Assembly (NCBI GenBank): GCA_025056115.1 | Contig: JANWVM010000011.1 | Span: 20,970-59,137 of the forward strand | DNA length: 38,168 nt | Source of the DNA: Gloeomargarita sp. SKYG116 | GTDB taxonomy: Bacteria; Cyanobacteriota; Cyanobacteriia; Gloeomargaritales; Gloeomargaritaceae | Reading direction: 5' to 3' | Shown here: one piece after another, positions 11,688 through 38,020 of the stretch | Layout: every line of letters starts with the position of its first letter | How positions within the stretch are numbered: position 1 is the first letter of the stretch | The notes under the pieces: model-generated | The model's input: only the letters and a program-made list of their open reading frames with translations | Told to the model about the DNA's origin: nothing | Database searches by the model: none | Position numbers and translations under genes: made by a program

Positions 11688-12995
11688 CTAGCAATCCAAC
11701 GTGTACTCCCGTTCCCACGGGGTAATCTGGCTGTGGAACTCCTGCCACTCCCGGTACTTGAGCTTGAGATAGGACTCCACAAAGTTCTCTCCAAGGAGAG
11801 TGGTCAGGGTGGTGTTGCGTTCCAAAGCCCGCAGCGCGTCTAACAGATTGCCCGGTAGGGACGGGTATTGCTCGGGGGGTAGGGGGTCCGTGTAGTTGTT
11901 GTTGTCGCACCGAGGGCCGGGGTCGCGCTGTTCCTTAATGCCATCCAACCCAGCGGCAATGACAGCAGCCACAAAGAGATAGGGATTGGCGGCGCCATCG
12001 GCCAAGCGCAGTTCAAACCGCCCTGGGTCGGGAATACGAATCATATGGGTGCGATTGTTGCCGCTGTAACTGATGGTGGTGGGGGACCAGGTGGCACCGG
12101 AACGGGTGACGGGAGCATTGATGCGCTTGTAGGAGTTCACAGTGGGGTTCGTAAAAGCGCATAGGGCCGGTGCATGATGCAAGACTCCCCCGATGAAGTG
12201 ATAGGCCAAGCGCGACAAACCCATTTCGTCTTGGGGGTCATGAAACAAATTCATTGCGCCTGCGGCATCCCACACGGACAGGTGCAAGTGACAGCCATTG
12301 CCAGTGAGATGGGCAAAAGGTTTGGGCATGAAGGTGGCCCGCAGCCCGTGTTTTTCCGCAATTGACTTCACCATGTACTTGAAAAAGGCGTGCCGGTCGG
12401 CGGTCACCAGGGCATCGTCGTAGAGCCAGTTCATTTCAAATTGACCGTTGGCGTCTTCGTGGTCGTTTTGGTAAGCTCCCCACCCGAGCGCCTGCATGGC
12501 ATCGCAAATTTCACTGATCACCGCAAACCGCCGCATCAAGGCCTGCTGGTCATAACAAGGTTTGCTCTGCCGGTCGAACCCATCCGCCAGCGATTCCCCA
12601 TCCGGTGACACCAGAAAATACTCACACTCGACACCCGTTTTCACCCGGTAACCGAGCGCCTGCGCCTGCTCCAGCACCCGTTTCAAAACCAGCCGGGGTG
12701 TTTGGGGCAAAGGGTCGCCTTTGACGGTGGCCAAGTCCGCCGGCATCCAGGCCACGTCCGGTTGCCAGGGCAAGGGCATCAACGCTGCTGCATCGGCCCG
12801 TGCAAACACATCCGCATCCGCCGGCGTCATGTCCAACCAAGCGGCAAATCCCGCAAAGCCAGCGGCCGTTTGCATCGTGTCAATCACCGCTGCCGGCACC
12901 AGCTTCGCCCGCTGAATGCCAAACAAATCAGTAAACGAAATCAAAAAGTAACGAATGCCGCGCGCTTGCGCCAGCGCCGATAGAGTCTGGGTCAT
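11688..12995 (-). CDS. Type III-like glutamine synthetase family protein (GlnT/GMAS-like)
   Basis: The product has 435 residues from the ATG at 12993-12995 (MTQTLSALAQARG); the open frame upstream to 13175 lies mostly inside the next gene. Glutamine-synthetase active-site blocks are present: GVECEYFLV, NDHEDANGQFEMNW, FMPKPF, GNGCHLHLS, PTVNSYKRI and RIPDPGRFELRLADGAANPY. Its length and the C-terminal REWQEFHSQITPWE ending resemble the GlnT branch, which includes gamma-glutamylmethylamide synthetase, rather than the classical cyanobacterial GlnA (about 470 residues, with an adenylylation-type loop) or GlnN. The enzyme likely couples ATP hydrolysis to amidation of glutamate; whether the amine is ammonia or an alkylamine cannot be told. 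It is the last gene of a four-gene minus-strand set. Confidence 0.85.
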   Translation of the reverse strand: MTQTLSALAQARGIRYFLISFTDLFGIQRAKLVPAAVIDTMQTAAGFAGFAAWLDMTPADADVFARADAAALMPLPWQPDVAWMPADLATVKGDPLPQTPRLVLKRVLEQAQALGYRVKTGVECEYFLVSPDGESLADGFDRQSKPCYDQQALMRRFAVISEICDAMQALGWGAYQNDHEDANGQFEMNWLYDDALVTADRHAFFKYMVKSIAEKHGLRATFMPKPFAHLTGNGCHLHLSVWDAAGAMNLFHDPQDEMGLSRLAYHFIGGVLHHAPALCAFTNPTVNSYKRINAPVTRSGATWSPTTISYSGNNRTHMIRIPDPGRFELRLADGAANPYLFVAAVIAAGLDGIKEQRDPGPRCDNNNYTDPLPPEQYPSLPGNLLDALRALERNTTLTTLLGENFVESYLKLKYREWQEFHSQITPWEREYTLDC

Positions 12996-13059
12996 GGGAA
13001 AAACCGTTGCTCTCGAATTAACGGCTATTAAACCGGGGAAAGCGCCCGCCAAAGTGTCG

Positions 13060-14085
13060 TCAAAAACACAAAATGCCTTCGGTAGCCAACCACTCCTGCA
13101 CCACCTGGCGAATAAAAGCGGCATCGGGGGGATGTTGCCAGGGATTCCCCGCTCGGTGGCCCCAGATGGAATCAATCAACCGAAACGTGGCGTTAGGGAT
13201 CAAGGCAGCTTCGGCGGCGCAGTCATCTGGGGGAAAGTACAAATCTGTCGTGCAGGTCATCACCAGGGTTTTGGCCCGAATGGAACGCAGTGCCCGCTCG
13301 TAGTCTCCCTGGTAAACGGGATTGTTGCCTACGTCACAGTGCAACCAGGTGTCAATCATCGCCAGCAAATCCCTGGGGTCCCGTCGCCGGTAGTTCGCTT
13401 CCCATCCCCGCACCAGGTAGTCTTCCAAATCCCGGTAGCCCAGTTGTTTGTAGAGCTCGGCACGATAAAACGCCTGGGAAGCCGCCCAACTGGCGTAAAT
13501 ACAGGCAAAGGCCCGGTAGCCCCGCTCGGGTACGCCCTGGAACGTTTGCCCATCCCACGCCGGGTCTGCCGTCAGCGCTGCCCGTAAACTCAGCAGAAAC
13601 ACCCGGTTGTGGGGCGTGGTGCGGGCTGTGCCACACAGGGCAACCATGCGTTCGACGCGGTCAGGATATAAAGCTCCCCAATGGTAGGCCTGTTGCGCTC
13701 CCATGGACCAGCCGTACACCAGCGCCAGCCGTTCAATGCCCCAGACCTCCCGCAGCAACCGTTCCTGCAACGTCACATTGTCCCAGTGGGTCACCACACA
13801 CCCCTGTTCCGCCAGGCCCGGTAACCCGCCGTTGCTGGGCGAACTGGACAACCCGTTGCCCAACATATTGGGAATCACAATAAACCAGCGGCTCGGGTCG
13901 AGAATCCCATCCGGGCTAATCAACCATTCGATGTCCGTGTGCTGAGCGCCATAGGACGTGGGGTAGAGCACCACGTTATCCCGCCGGGGCGAAAGTTCCC
14001 CGTAGGTCTGATAGACGACCTGCACCCGCGGCAACTGGATTCCACATTGCAGCGTCACATCTTGGGCCGTCCAAACCCCGGTCAT
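13060..14085 (-). CDS. Alpha/beta hydrolase of the homoserine O-acyltransferase (MetX)-like family
   Basis: The product has 341 residues. The ATG (14083-14085) overlaps the stop of the upstream desaturase gene as ATGA, which fixes the start. The fold is MetX-like: VYQTYGELSPRRDNVVLYP, an IPNMLGNGLSSSP segment, the nucleophile elbow GWSMGAQQAYHWG (S127), then CTTDLYFPPDD and WGHRAGNP for the catalytic Asp and His. True homoserine acetyltransferases carry GGSMGGMQ at the elbow; here it is GWSMGAQQ, so acyl transfer to homoserine is doubtful. Lying between a desaturase and a glutamine synthetase relative, it may act on another acyl substrate (inference). A 64-bp gap separates it from the downstream gene. 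Confidence 0.8.
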   Translation of the reverse strand: MTGVWTAQDVTLQCGIQLPRVQVVYQTYGELSPRRDNVVLYPTSYGAQHTDIEWLISPDGILDPSRWFIVIPNMLGNGLSSSPSNGGLPGLAEQGCVVTHWDNVTLQERLLREVWGIERLALVYGWSMGAQQAYHWGALYPDRVERMVALCGTARTTPHNRVFLLSLRAALTADPAWDGQTFQGVPERGYRAFACIYASWAASQAFYRAELYKQLGYRDLEDYLVRGWEANYRRRDPRDLLAMIDTWLHCDVGNNPVYQGDYERALRSIRAKTLVMTCTTDLYFPPDDCAAEAALIPNATFRLIDSIWGHRAGNPWQHPPDAAFIRQVVQEWLATEGILCF

Positions 14086-15011
14086 CCCGGAAACTGGGCG
14101 ACGATTTCCCGGTTGGCGGCGATGTAGCCAGGCGCTAGATGCACCCACTTGTCCCGCAACTTTTGATGCGCCTGGGGCAAGGCATGAAAGGGAATTGCCG
14201 GACAGAAATGGTGCTCGGCATGAAACGGCATATTCCACATCAACAACCGCACCGGCCACCCGGTCAACGTCGTGCGCGTGTTGGTCAGGGGGTTGCTGTC
14301 GTAGCTACAACCCGTGTGTTCTGCCAGCAAGATAAAGCGCAAAAACGGTTGTCCCACCGCTAGCGGCACGACCCAGTCCATGAGAAACCACGGCTGGCCC
14401 GCCCAGACCGATAGGGCTATTGCCAGGGCATAAACCGCTAACTGCGCCGCCGTCGAACGCCGCACCGTCGCCTGGGCTTCGGGAGCAATGTAGGGACATC
14501 CCTGAAAATTCCCCAGCAGCACCCGCAGGTGACCCCGCACTTTTCCCCACCACCAGGGAATCCCGCTCAACTGCCACAGATACATCCGCCAGTTCGTGGG
14601 TACGGGGTCTTCCAGTTCGGGGTCTTTACCAGGAATCTGCGTATAGCGGTGATGCCACTGGTGATAACGGCGATAGAACGCACTGTTGTAAAACGACAAT
14701 ACGCCAGCGACCCAGGCCACCGCATCGTTCAACCAGGGAGTGGCAAACGCCGTGCGATGGACACACTCATGGACAGCGGCAAACATGGTCGCTAGGCTAA
14801 AGCCATACAGGGGCAACGCCAGCCAACCCCAGAGCATCCCCTGCGTCCAGGCCCCGTGCCACAGTAGCCCGCTTCCAACTAAAATGCCCAAGTGGGCCAA
14901 CAATTGCCGCCATCCTTTGACATCCGAGCGCCGGTTCAAAGCTGCCAGCTCCTCGGGGGAAAAGACATCACTTAGCTTGATCGCCGCTGGAGTTGTTGAC
15001 TGCCCTGCCAT
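14082..15011 (-). CDS. Fatty acid desaturase family membrane protein
   Basis: The product has 309 residues from the ATG at 15009-15011. It carries three histidine boxes of di-iron desaturases/hydroxylases: HECVH (81-85), HQWHH (117-121) and HAEHH (264-268), with hydrophobic segments between residues about 40-75 and 190-235. The signature WHHRYTQIPGKDPELEDP is family-like, but I cannot say whether the substrate is a glycerolipid acyl chain, a sphingoid base or a terpenoid. It is distinct from the crtR hydroxylase at 25.2-26.1 kb. Its TGA overlaps the ATG of the next gene, indicating coupling. The upstream transketolase-like gene ends 77 bp before. Confidence 0.85.
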   Translation of the reverse strand: MAGQSTTPAAIKLSDVFSPEELAALNRRSDVKGWRQLLAHLGILVGSGLLWHGAWTQGMLWGWLALPLYGFSLATMFAAVHECVHRTAFATPWLNDAVAWVAGVLSFYNSAFYRRYHQWHHRYTQIPGKDPELEDPVPTNWRMYLWQLSGIPWWWGKVRGHLRVLLGNFQGCPYIAPEAQATVRRSTAAQLAVYALAIALSVWAGQPWFLMDWVVPLAVGQPFLRFILLAEHTGCSYDSNPLTNTRTTLTGWPVRLLMWNMPFHAEHHFCPAIPFHALPQAHQKLRDKWVHLAPGYIAANREIVAQFPG

Positions 15012-15088
15012 CCTCAGTAATTGCCCTATCCTACAACTACAACTCCCACAAGATAACAGTGAGCCTTGCCCAACGTTGGTAACGCCCA

Positions 15089-17278
15089 CTACAACAGGGA
15101 ATGTACCCGCTGGACAATCTGTTCGGCGCTCAACCCGTTGTAGGCCAGCAATTGGTCAGGAGACGCCGCTGTTTCTCCTCGCCGCCAGCCGATGGCATCC
15201 CGCCGGGGCATCTGCGCGCGTAACAGGACGGGTTCTAGTGTTGTCACCGGCCCCCCGCTAATTCCCAACAGCGCATCACCCGTAAATAGTTGGGCAAAGG
15301 TGGCATCGTCCATAAATTCCCCATCCGGTTCGGCGCAGGTGGACCAGGCCACATCACTGGGGCGACACAACCGCCGCAGGTTCACCAAGCTGACAATGCG
15401 CGTGCCAATACCTTGGGCTTGCAACTGGGCCGCCGCCGCAAATACTGGTATCAAGACCAAATCGCCCACCACCGCCAGCACCACCAGCCGTTCTCCCGGC
15501 GTCTCTTGCAAGACAACAGCTCCCTGGGCGACCGCCTGCTGCGCCTGCTCCCAGGTCGTGCGCACCGGCAACGGCGTTTTACTGGCAAAAATGGCGATGC
15601 CTTTGTTGAACGTGGTCACCGCCCACAGGTAGGCCGCTTGGGCGCAATTCGCATCAGGGGGAAACACCGGATACACATTCCCGTTGCGCATCAGGGCCAT
15701 GTAGTAGGCTTCAATTTCCGGGCGTTGGTGCGTCCAGCCATTGCGCCCCTGCTCTAGCGCCCCCGCTGTAAACAAGGCAATCGTCGAAGGCGTGGGTCGC
15801 CGCAATTCCGCCATCGCCTGGGTTACTGTTTGCCAGATGGGTAGCCCGTTAATGGCAAAGGATTCATAGGAGCACCACAGCGACCGTCCCCCCAACAGGC
15901 ACACCGCCGCCGCCAAGCCCGCACAGGCATCTTCGCTCAAGGGTTCATAGACCTGGCCCTGGGGCGACTGGTTATACAGCGGGTCTGCCGTTGGGTGAAT
16001 CACCTTCAGCCCCTGATTGATATTGGCAATCCCTGACGCTTCATTGCCGTCAGCGTTAGTCACCAAAAATTTCGGGTCGCTTTGCCCCAGTTGCACGACT
16101 AACTTCCCCACGGCTGTCGTCGCCACCTGTTTTTCGCCGATGGGAAATTCCTGGTGGGTGAATAGGGGCAAGGGCGGCAAGGGGCGCACCGATTCCGTTA
16201 CCGCAACCTGGGCTGCCGGACCACCCCCAGCTCGCCGAAAGTTCTCCCGCACCAAATCCCAGGCTTCTACCGGCAAAGCCCGCTGCTGCAATGCCCGTAC
16301 AATGTCTGGATTCTCCAGGGTGTGCTGAGCATACAGGTTGTGGGCTTTGGCGCCCCGCGCATGTACCCCGGCCCCTTTCAGTTGCTTCAGGATGAAGACC
16401 GTTAATTTTCCCCCGAGGGCGCTCTGGGCTGCCTGGTCCAACCCGCTGAGGACCGCTTCCGTAAACCGCAACCGTTGCGCAAAGCCAAACAAAGTGCTGT
16501 CGACGTAATCTCCCGGTTGCCCCTGGTCATCGAAGTCCTTGGCATCTACCAAAACCACCGCGTCAAACCCGTGGGCGCGCCAGTAGCGTTCCATGGCGGC
16601 GTTGTCCGCTGTTGCATTCATGCTGTGGTGTTCCTGGCTATAGCCGTTCCAGACCAGGATGGGCAAGAAATTCGTCACCTGGGGAAACGCGGTGTGGAAA
16701 TGCAAAAAGCTGCTCATGACGTAGGGTTCCCCTAGCCCCCCATCCCCAATCGTCACCGGAAATAGCACATCGGGGTAGAGATACGCCCCCGCCATCGCAA
16801 AATGTTGCCCTTGGCCCAAGGGACCTGCTGGCCCAATGACTCCCGGAATCGCGCCCGACAAGTGCCCCAGCAACCCGTGCATTTCCCGGAAGCGCTCTCG
16901 CAGTTGGGCTACCGTGTGAATCCCCATCGCTTCCAGTGAGCCATCCAAGAACAACGCCGCGTAAAACCCTGGCGCATGGTGGCCCACTTCCGTTGGGATG
17001 TTCTTGTGGCCCAGCATGAACAGGGCGGCAATCGCTTCCGCGCAACTGGCAAAACCCCCAGGGTGGCCCGAGGCTTTGGTTGCCGTCATTTGCAGCACCA
17101 AGTAACGCAGGGCATCCGCAGCCAGCAGCGTCTGGTAAACCGCTTGCGGGTCGTGGGGGTTGCGAATGCTGCCTGTCGTTGCCTCCACCGCCGGTCGTTG
17201 CCCATAATGCGACCAGTCCGGCCACGTTGTCCCAAAGTAATCAATGCCCTGCCAGCAGTCCGTTGCGACGGTCATCAT
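15089..17278 (-). CDS. Transketolase-like thiamine-diphosphate enzyme
   Basis: The product has about 729 residues. The N-terminal half has a ThDP-binding pattern: SGHPGGFASCAEA, a HAPGFYAALFLDG segment, IGDGGLGEPYVMSSF (GDG motif) and the Asn of NGYSQEHHSMN. The C-terminal half has the pyrimidine-binding and transketolase C-terminal regions. Sequence and length differ from the canonical Calvin-cycle transketolase (about 670 residues, GHPGLPMG), and some blocks are closer to phosphoketolase-like proteins annotated in cyanobacteria. The ketose substrate is therefore uncertain. Two ATGs at 17276-17278 and 17273-17275 are possible starts after a G-rich ribosome site; a GTG at 17287 also exists. 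It heads the four-gene minus operon and diverges from psbZ. Confidence 0.8.
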   Translation of the reverse strand: MMTVATDCWQGIDYFGTTWPDWSHYGQRPAVEATTGSIRNPHDPQAVYQTLLAADALRYLVLQMTATKASGHPGGFASCAEAIAALFMLGHKNIPTEVGHHAPGFYAALFLDGSLEAMGIHTVAQLRERFREMHGLLGHLSGAIPGVIGPAGPLGQGQHFAMAGAYLYPDVLFPVTIGDGGLGEPYVMSSFLHFHTAFPQVTNFLPILVWNGYSQEHHSMNATADNAAMERYWRAHGFDAVVLVDAKDFDDQGQPGDYVDSTLFGFAQRLRFTEAVLSGLDQAAQSALGGKLTVFILKQLKGAGVHARGAKAHNLYAQHTLENPDIVRALQQRALPVEAWDLVRENFRRAGGGPAAQVAVTESVRPLPPLPLFTHQEFPIGEKQVATTAVGKLVVQLGQSDPKFLVTNADGNEASGIANINQGLKVIHPTADPLYNQSPQGQVYEPLSEDACAGLAAAVCLLGGRSLWCSYESFAINGLPIWQTVTQAMAELRRPTPSTIALFTAGALEQGRNGWTHQRPEIEAYYMALMRNGNVYPVFPPDANCAQAAYLWAVTTFNKGIAIFASKTPLPVRTTWEQAQQAVAQGAVVLQETPGERLVVLAVVGDLVLIPVFAAAAQLQAQGIGTRIVSLVNLRRLCRPSDVAWSTCAEPDGEFMDDATFAQLFTGDALLGISGGPVTTLEPVLLRAQMPRRDAIGWRRGETAASPDQLLAYNGLSAEQIVQRVHSLL

Positions 17279-37173: not shown

Positions 37174-37503
37174 ATGTGCTACAGCCTGGATTTACGGGAA
37201 AAAGTCATGGCTTTTATTGAGAATGGGCATAGTATCACCCAAGCAGCCAAAGTGTTTAATATCGGCAGAGCAACGATTTACCGCTGGCTAGCGAGACCGC
37301 ATCTAGCAAGCATTCCGGTCGAACGCAGGAAACGAAAAATAGATATTGCTCGACTGCATCAAGATGTGGAACAGCACCCCGACAAGACCTTGAGAGAGAG
37401 AGCGAGAGAATTTGGGGTGACACCCAGTGCTATATGCTACCAGTTTAAGCGACTCAAAATTAGGAGAAAAAAAACTGTTGCGGTATCGAGAAAGAGACCA
37501 TGA
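37174..37503 (+). CDS. IS630-family transposase, N-terminal frame (HTH)
   Basis: The product has 109 residues from ATG 37174, with GAGAAG 7 nt before it; a TTG at 37168 is also in frame. CYSLDLREKVMAFIENG, SITQAAKVFNIGRATIYRW is a helix-turn-helix for binding the terminal repeats; a second HTH-like block (TLRERAREFGVTPSAICYQF) follows. The frame passes through an A8 tract (37467-37474) and then runs only ten more codons. It needs a +1 shift (or -2) to enter the catalytic frame. Confidence 0.85.
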   Translation: MCYSLDLREKVMAFIENGHSITQAAKVFNIGRATIYRWLARPHLASIPVERRKRKIDIARLHQDVEQHPDKTLRERAREFGVTPSAICYQFKRLKIRRKKTVAVSRKRP

Positions 37504-38020
37504 AGCTCGCATGAGCTACTATCGGACGTTAAGAGGATTGGTAAAAATCTACGGGGTGGCGAGTCTGGTATTCATTGATGAGACGGGATTTGAGAAGTTT
37601 ACTCATCTCATTTATGGCTGGGCGAAGCGGGGAAAAAAGATATATGGAGAACGGCAAGGTCGCCGCTGTCAACGCGAGAATTTAGTCGCCGGTCGGCGGA
37701 AACATAGTAAGGATTTAATTGCACCGATGATATTGGAGGGTCGTATAGATGCCATAACCTTTGAACAGTGGTTAGAGGGATACTTATTACCGGCATTGAC
37801 CCAAGTATCTGTATTAATCATGGACAATGCACCTATTCATCGGAAAAATCGAATTAAAAAGCTGGTGGAAGGAGCAGGTCACATCGTACTTTTTTTGCCG
37901 ACTTATTCGCCAGACCTGAATGATATTGAGCATGACTTTAGTGCATTAAAGAGATTGAGAATGTATGCTCCTGCTGGGACTACCATTGATGAAATAATCT
38001 GCAAATATTGCACAAGTTGA
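37427..38020 (+). CDS. IS630-family transposase, C-terminal DDE frame
   Basis: The open frame has up to 197 residues; the genuine part probably begins at the A8 tract (KKLLRYRERD). The catalytic triad is VFIDETGF, LIMDNAPIH and DLNDIEH, with 34 residues between the second D and the E, the D34E spacing of the IS630/Tc1 group. The stop TGA (38018-38020) abuts the right inverted repeat. An independent start at the ATG at 37427 is possible but would precede the domain with non-family sequence. Confidence 0.85.
   Translation: MLYATSLSDSKLGEKKLLRYRERDHEARMSYYRTLRGLVKIYGVASLVFIDETGFEKFTHLIYGWAKRGKKIYGERQGRRCQRENLVAGRRKHSKDLIAPMILEGRIDAITFEQWLEGYLLPALTQVSVLIMDNAPIHRKNRIKKLVEGAGHIVLFLPTYSPDLNDIEHDFSALKRLRMYAPAGTTIDEIICKYCTS
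37467..37474 (+). other. A8 slippery tract at the transposase frame junction
   Basis: Eight consecutive A lie where the HTH frame must pass to the catalytic frame. Loss of one A in the mRNA by polymerase slippage, or a +1 ribosomal shift, would give one fused protein. A simple inactivating insertion is the alternative. Confidence 0.5.

Follow-up and report, generated by a model that had tools for sequence, protein, structure and literature searches.

In the cyanobacterium Gloeomargarita sp. SKYG116, the genes for a membrane di-iron desaturase, a MetX-like alpha/beta hydrolase, and a glutamine synthetase (GS)-like enzyme form a conserved cassette. On balance we favor the reading that this trio is a self-contained, NtcA-switched nitrogen-scavenging cassette for short alkylamines, which it would glutamylate, oxidize, and hydrolyze. 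With moderate confidence, its function can be narrowed to the salvage of alkylamine or amide nitrogen. The genes lie in a 38,168-nt stretch of contig JANWVM010000011.1, referred to as the window, and positions are those of this stretch unless a locus is named. Four intact reading frames, all on the minus strand, occupy positions 17278 to 11688 in the order transketolase-like (TK-like), desaturase, MetX-like, and GS, with a gap of 77 bp, an ATGA overlap (14085-14082), and a gap of 64 bp. An earlier, sequence-only reading had given this order, the common strand, and the spacing exactly, and had taken all four genes for one operon; the last three do form a unit, and the TK-like gene is excluded from it. 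No published description of the trio was found in a literature search.

Conservation and spread of the cassette

The cassette was analyzed in 89 related loci, 80 retrieved from a genome collection with the MetX-like protein as query and 9 from a sample of 194 genomes of the phylum. In 74 of 83 loci, the desaturase gene immediately preceded the MetX-like gene, and in 51 the two overlapped by 4 nt at the stop and start codons; the GS gene immediately followed the MetX-like gene in 44 of the 83. In the 194-genome sample, close MetX-like proteins (at least 51% identity) and close GS proteins (at least 57%) occurred in an identical set of 10 genomes, in all of which the desaturase gene adjoined the MetX-like gene. 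The grouping of the three genes is far beyond chance, and the ATGA-coupled genes do constitute a genuine functional group.

The distribution of the trio was patchy, from Gloeobacterales through Nostocales. A plasmid-borne trio was present in Leptolyngbya sp. BL0902, and a MetX-GS pair was located on a Nostoc plasmid. Patchy occurrence together with plasmid copies points to a mobile, conserved three-gene cassette that has spread horizontally. Almost none of 15 cassette genomes tested had a GS gene next to the pair, and 14 of the 15 still carried a GmaS-like gene elsewhere; some of these genes belonged to a second branch with 51% identity. A creatininase gene beside the trio in Pseudanabaena was taken as local synteny, and the chromosomal MetX neighborhoods of proteobacteria (loci L202 to L207) revealed no useful partners.

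The GS-like enzyme has the active site of a gamma-glutamyl-alkylamide synthetase

In profile searches, the GS protein (11688-12995, minus strand, 435 amino acids) scored 676 bits against TIGR03105 (cut-off, 470 bits), a family labeled "type III glutamate--ammonia ligase." Its best solved relative was RhGmaS of Rhodovulum (PDB 7CQL), the gamma-glutamylmethylamide synthetase (GmaS) of the N-methylglutamate pathway, with 63% identity over 426 residues. All checked RhGmaS residues, covering ATP binding, the amine pocket, and catalysis, were kept in the alignment, namely, K30, A48, E122, Y147, Y174, Q175, D177, E179, E186, N188, W189, Y191, W300, R312, and R317. These include the catalytic residues Asp177, Glu186, and Arg312 and the amine pocket residues Lys30, Tyr147, Gln175, Glu179, and Asn188, as defined for GmaS (PMC7948447), and both sets were present in nearly all of 61 aligned GS proteins from cassettes and neighboring loci. 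The Asp50 of glutamine synthetases is replaced by Ala48, and the glutamate of the Glu-flap by Trp300, as in GmaS; the GlnA of the same genome has D at position 48 and a different amine pocket.

Because of this identity and the complete retention of the checked active-site residues, the window enzyme should glutamylate short alkylamines, not ammonia. RhGmaS itself has a Km of 27 µM for methylamine, 58 µM for ethylamine, and 8.7 mM for ammonium (PMC7948447). The database name would suit a back-up glutamine synthetase for ammonia with the other two genes unrelated to it, but this is very improbable given the replacement of the ammonia-binding Asp50 by Ala and of the Glu-flap residue by Trp, as in GmaS, and given the perfect co-occurrence with the MetX-like protein across the 194-genome sample. 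A role as an ammonia enzyme was rejected on the active-site residues. The earlier description of the protein as type III GS-like matches the family label, whereas the residues are those of GmaS and not of an ammonia ligase; amide formation by this enzyme is central to the group. In cyanobacteria, the label "type III glutamate--ammonia ligase" probably covers proteins other than glutamine synthetases.

A predicted NtcA-type promoter in front of the trio

A predicted NtcA-type promoter, GTAGTGGGCGTTAC-N23-TATCTT (15092-15050, minus strand), is located in the 77-bp gap between the TK-like and desaturase genes and separates the trio from the TK-like gene. The site (15079-15092) matches the GTAN8TAC sequence of canonical NtcA promoters (PMC3898017), overlaps the stop codon of the TK-like gene, and lies 81 nt before the desaturase ATG. 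The putative -10 box of the TAN3T type, TATCTT, follows 23 nt downstream (15050-15055). When a GTAN8TAC site with a TAN3T box 21 to 24 nt downstream was sought up to 300 bp upstream of genes, it was found in 17 of 78 desaturase loci compared to 8 of 679 other genes there (Fisher's test, P = 1.7e-12, an optimistic value since the loci are related by descent). It was present in 11 of 51 nonredundant cassette groups, still far above the control rate. Upstream of TK-like genes, a bare NtcA site was found in 0 of 29 cases. The trio is thus apparently under nitrogen-starvation control by NtcA. Additionally, a divergent gene for a GntR/UTRA regulator was present beside the cassette in 19 of 83 loci.

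Desaturase and MetX-like hydrolase

The desaturase (14082-15011, minus strand, 309 amino acids) belongs to the membrane di-iron desaturase/hydroxylase family (PF00487, 7.9e-41 in the profile search). It carries the histidine boxes H81xxxH85, H117xxH120H121, and H264xxH267H268 and a conserved H232; each of the eight box histidines was kept in at least 97% of 80 proteins. Its best NCBIfam relative was the L-arginine hydroxylase of guanitoxin synthesis, GntB (NF041365), yet the score was 42.7 bits against a cut-off of 380, and a search of the PDB gave no match. Since the GntB substrate, arginine, is a free amino acid, an amino-acid-like compound is plausible as the substrate of the desaturase. 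In some loci, relatives of the desaturase gene adjoin those of Rieske-type ferredoxins; elsewhere they adjoin genes for MetX and an iron-containing alcohol dehydrogenase, in one such locus also for a rubredoxin, and in Leptolyngbya PCC 6406 those for GntR, an iron-containing alcohol dehydrogenase, and the second-branch GmaS.

The MetX-like protein (13060-14085, minus strand, 341 amino acids) was assigned to NF005757/PRK07581 with 491 bits (cut-off, 332), and each residue of its catalytic triad, Ser127, Asp281, and His310, was kept in at least 97% of 88 proteins. The best solved relatives, PDB 5E4Y and 5D6O, which share with it the nucleophile motif GxSMGAQQxYxW, were deposited as homoserine O-acetyltransferase. 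In contrast to that annotation, the window protein fails the cut-offs of the full homoserine O-acetyltransferase models, with 115 bits for the equivalog TIGR01392 (cut-off, 500). We take the two structures to be those of the acetylesterases MekB and CgHle.

Relatives of the hydrolase gene in proteobacteria, Deinococcus, and actinobacteria were found with genes for aliphatic amidase, formamidase, cytosine permease, ANTAR regulators, urea-type transporters, dihydropyrimidinase, and carbamoylase. In Rhodobacterales, the MetX relatives were accompanied by a GS-like gene and an ABC transporter. Across many phyla, clusters for the use of amides, formamide, or pyrimidines repeatedly contain the PRK07581 hydrolase (loci L230, L232 to L239, and L241), and no description of its role in such clusters was found in the literature.

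Methylated-amine pathways in cassette-bearing genomes

A stand-alone MgsC, the FMN glutamate-synthase-like subunit of the N-methylglutamate pathway, was not found in the window genome, where the closest match (34%) was located inside a 1,533-amino-acid frame of the GltB type; the positive control genomes, G005 and G060, gave matches of 89% and 67%. It was also absent from eight of the nine other cassette-bearing genomes of the sample. PF04267, the SoxD-like domain of N-methylglutamate dehydrogenase, had no match in the 10 genomes and none in the control genomes either. The canonical N-methylglutamate pathway was rejected for the window genome on the result for MgsC, the lack of which makes it unlikely that gamma-glutamylmethylamide is processed there by the usual route. 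The cassette thus differs from the system of RhGmaS, and the partners of the enzyme are a di-iron oxygenase and a MetX-like hydrolase.

By its gene content, a stretch of Pleurocapsales LEGE 10410 (locus L286, 3066-12404) is a recognizable methylated-amine pathway in a cyanobacterium, with mgsABC-like genes, a second-branch GmaS, a DmmA-like reductase, and a heme-dependent N-demethylase of the HODM family. In other loci, the second-branch GmaS was found beside an iron-containing alcohol dehydrogenase (L280, 6370-11328; L282 and L283), accompanied in L282 and L283 by an aldehyde dehydrogenase, neighbors that would suit the oxidation of a glutamylated amino alcohol.

A proposed route for alkylamine nitrogen and its alternatives

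In the favored reading, NtcA would turn the cassette on under nitrogen shortage, and the divergent GntR/UTRA regulator may add control in some strains. GmaS would spend ATP on linking the gamma-carboxyl group of glutamate to a short alkylamine, for example, methylamine or ethylamine. The resulting gamma-glutamyl-alkylamide would be amino-acid-like and is a plausible substrate for the desaturase, which, as a ferredoxin-fed di-iron oxygenase, would oxidize the alkyl group. The MetX-like hydrolase would then cleave the oxidized product, so that nitrogen is passed on as glutamine, glutamate, or ammonia. The cassette would in this way replace the N-methylglutamate route that is apparently missing from the window genome. 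The conjectural parts of this scheme are the alkylamine as the natural substrate, the order of the steps, and the precise bond that the hydrolase cleaves. Glutamylation followed by oxidation and hydrolysis is the simplest self-contained sequence of steps, and an order in which oxidation and hydrolysis precede glutamylation is nearly as likely.

For 1-naphthylamine it is established that gamma-glutamylation comes before oxidation, and the same order has been reported for other amines; in such glutamylation-first pathways (anilines, NpaA1/AtdA1) a GS-like ligase has oxidizing and hydrolyzing partners, as in the trio (PMC11335346). In contrast to them, the oxygenase of the trio is a membrane PF00487 protein and not a Rieske dioxygenase, its GS belongs to the GmaS branch, and the host is photosynthetic, with NtcA sites at the genes. 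Oxidizing and hydrolyzing partners presumably also accompany the ligases of two further glutamylation-first routes, IpuC for isopropylamine and PuuA for putrescine.

Several findings weigh against the favored reading. The window holds no linked amine transporter gene, the MetX-like hydrolase carries no substrate-specific signature, and the broad specificity of GmaS means that the amine may be another one. Several genomes have the desaturase without MetX, so its role may be wider. Most cassettes, including those of the window's nearest relatives (L129 and L135), lack a strict NtcA match, and a single site such as that in the window has a chance of about 1% in a random 300-bp upstream region (8 of 679). 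As for transport, cyanobacteria are documented to take up methylammonium (PMC10794816), so the scheme does not depend on a transporter gene of its own.

A different use of the same enzymes for nitrogen scavenging is less probable than the favored scheme. In it, the oxygenase and hydrolase act first on an N-alkyl amide, carbamate, or ester, and the role of GmaS is limited to trapping the short alkylamine thus freed. It would explain why the tightest link is that between desaturase and MetX, with GmaS sometimes elsewhere in the genome, and it fits the MetX relatives in amide-use clusters as well as LEGE 10410, where a Des/MetX pair and a separate mgsABC-gmaS cluster that would process the freed amine are both present. 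However, most tested cassette genomes have no MgsC, and gamma-glutamylmethylamide would be a dead end in them unless the trio itself handles it.

Synthesis or modification of an amide-containing lipid or small molecule, as suggested by the sequence-only reading, is improbable. Oxidizing, acyl-handling, and amide-forming enzymes could suffice for a biosynthetic trio, and PF00487 members often act on lipids; however, no gene for a nonribosomal peptide synthetase, polyketide synthase, methyltransferase, or exporter was conserved around the trio in the cassette loci. The context, with GmaS residues, NtcA sites, and relatives in catabolic amide-use clusters, favors the scavenging of amine or amide nitrogen.

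Tentatively, the salvage reading can be extended to a hitherto undescribed way for oxygenic phototrophs to use alkylamine nitrogen, in which a membrane di-iron oxygenase and an alpha/beta hydrolase, encoded by a mobile three-gene cassette under NtcA control, would dealkylate the gamma-glutamyl-alkylamide in place of N-methylglutamate synthase/dehydrogenase. Dissolved organic nitrogen includes a sizeable pool of methylated amines, whose use has been described mainly in proteobacteria. A widespread GmaS cassette under nitrogen control in cyanobacteria would give many phototrophs access to this pool via a new enzyme pairing.

The TK-like gene as a widespread neighbor

The TK-like protein (15089-17278, minus strand) is a divergent member of the phosphoketolase/transketolase superfamily of thiamine-diphosphate enzymes. 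It passed the Pfam gathering score for XFP in the profile search (6.7e-13), and its best PDB match was the phosphoketolase 3AHC. By these matches it is nearer to the phosphoketolase superfamily than to transketolase, the enzyme named in the sequence-only reading. It failed all phosphoketolase and transketolase equivalog cut-offs and reached at best 95 bits for the NCBIfam phosphoketolase PRK05261 (cut-offs of at least 777 bits). The gene was present in approximately 70 of approximately 90 sampled Cyanobacteriia with 63 to 83% identity and encodes a widespread, uncharacterized thiamine-diphosphate enzyme of cyanobacteria. It may correspond to Synechocystis sll0529 (pket2), a lead taken from the literature.

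In this one genome, the common strand, the 77-bp gap, and the lack of a strong terminator in it would allow a genuine operon of all four genes, with the TK-like enzyme providing or using up the carbon skeleton. The trio was not beside the TK-like gene in any other locus. No TK-like gene was near the trio in the 89 related loci, of which 60 had more than 2.5 kb of upstream sequence, enough to reveal it, and no trio gene was within 1.5 kb in 29 TK-like neighborhoods inspected outside the window genome. Most cyanobacteria carry the TK-like gene without the trio, including the same-genus genome G085, where it stands beside ribH as in the window. In 14 named cassette-bearing genomes the two were apart, as they were in Gloeomargaritales VI4D9. 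Together with the predicted NtcA-type promoter inside the gap, this leaves the four-gene operon scarcely credible, and it was rejected. The sequence-only reading had itself named conservation of the neighborhood beyond close relatives as its test, and such conservation was found for the three genes and not for the TK-like gene.

In genome G177 (locus L118, 8301-10569), a lone GmaS gene lies divergently beside ribH, in the spot held by the TK-like gene in the window. Near the window end, an open reading frame (37427-38020) resembles an IS630-type transposase in a reading of its sequence.

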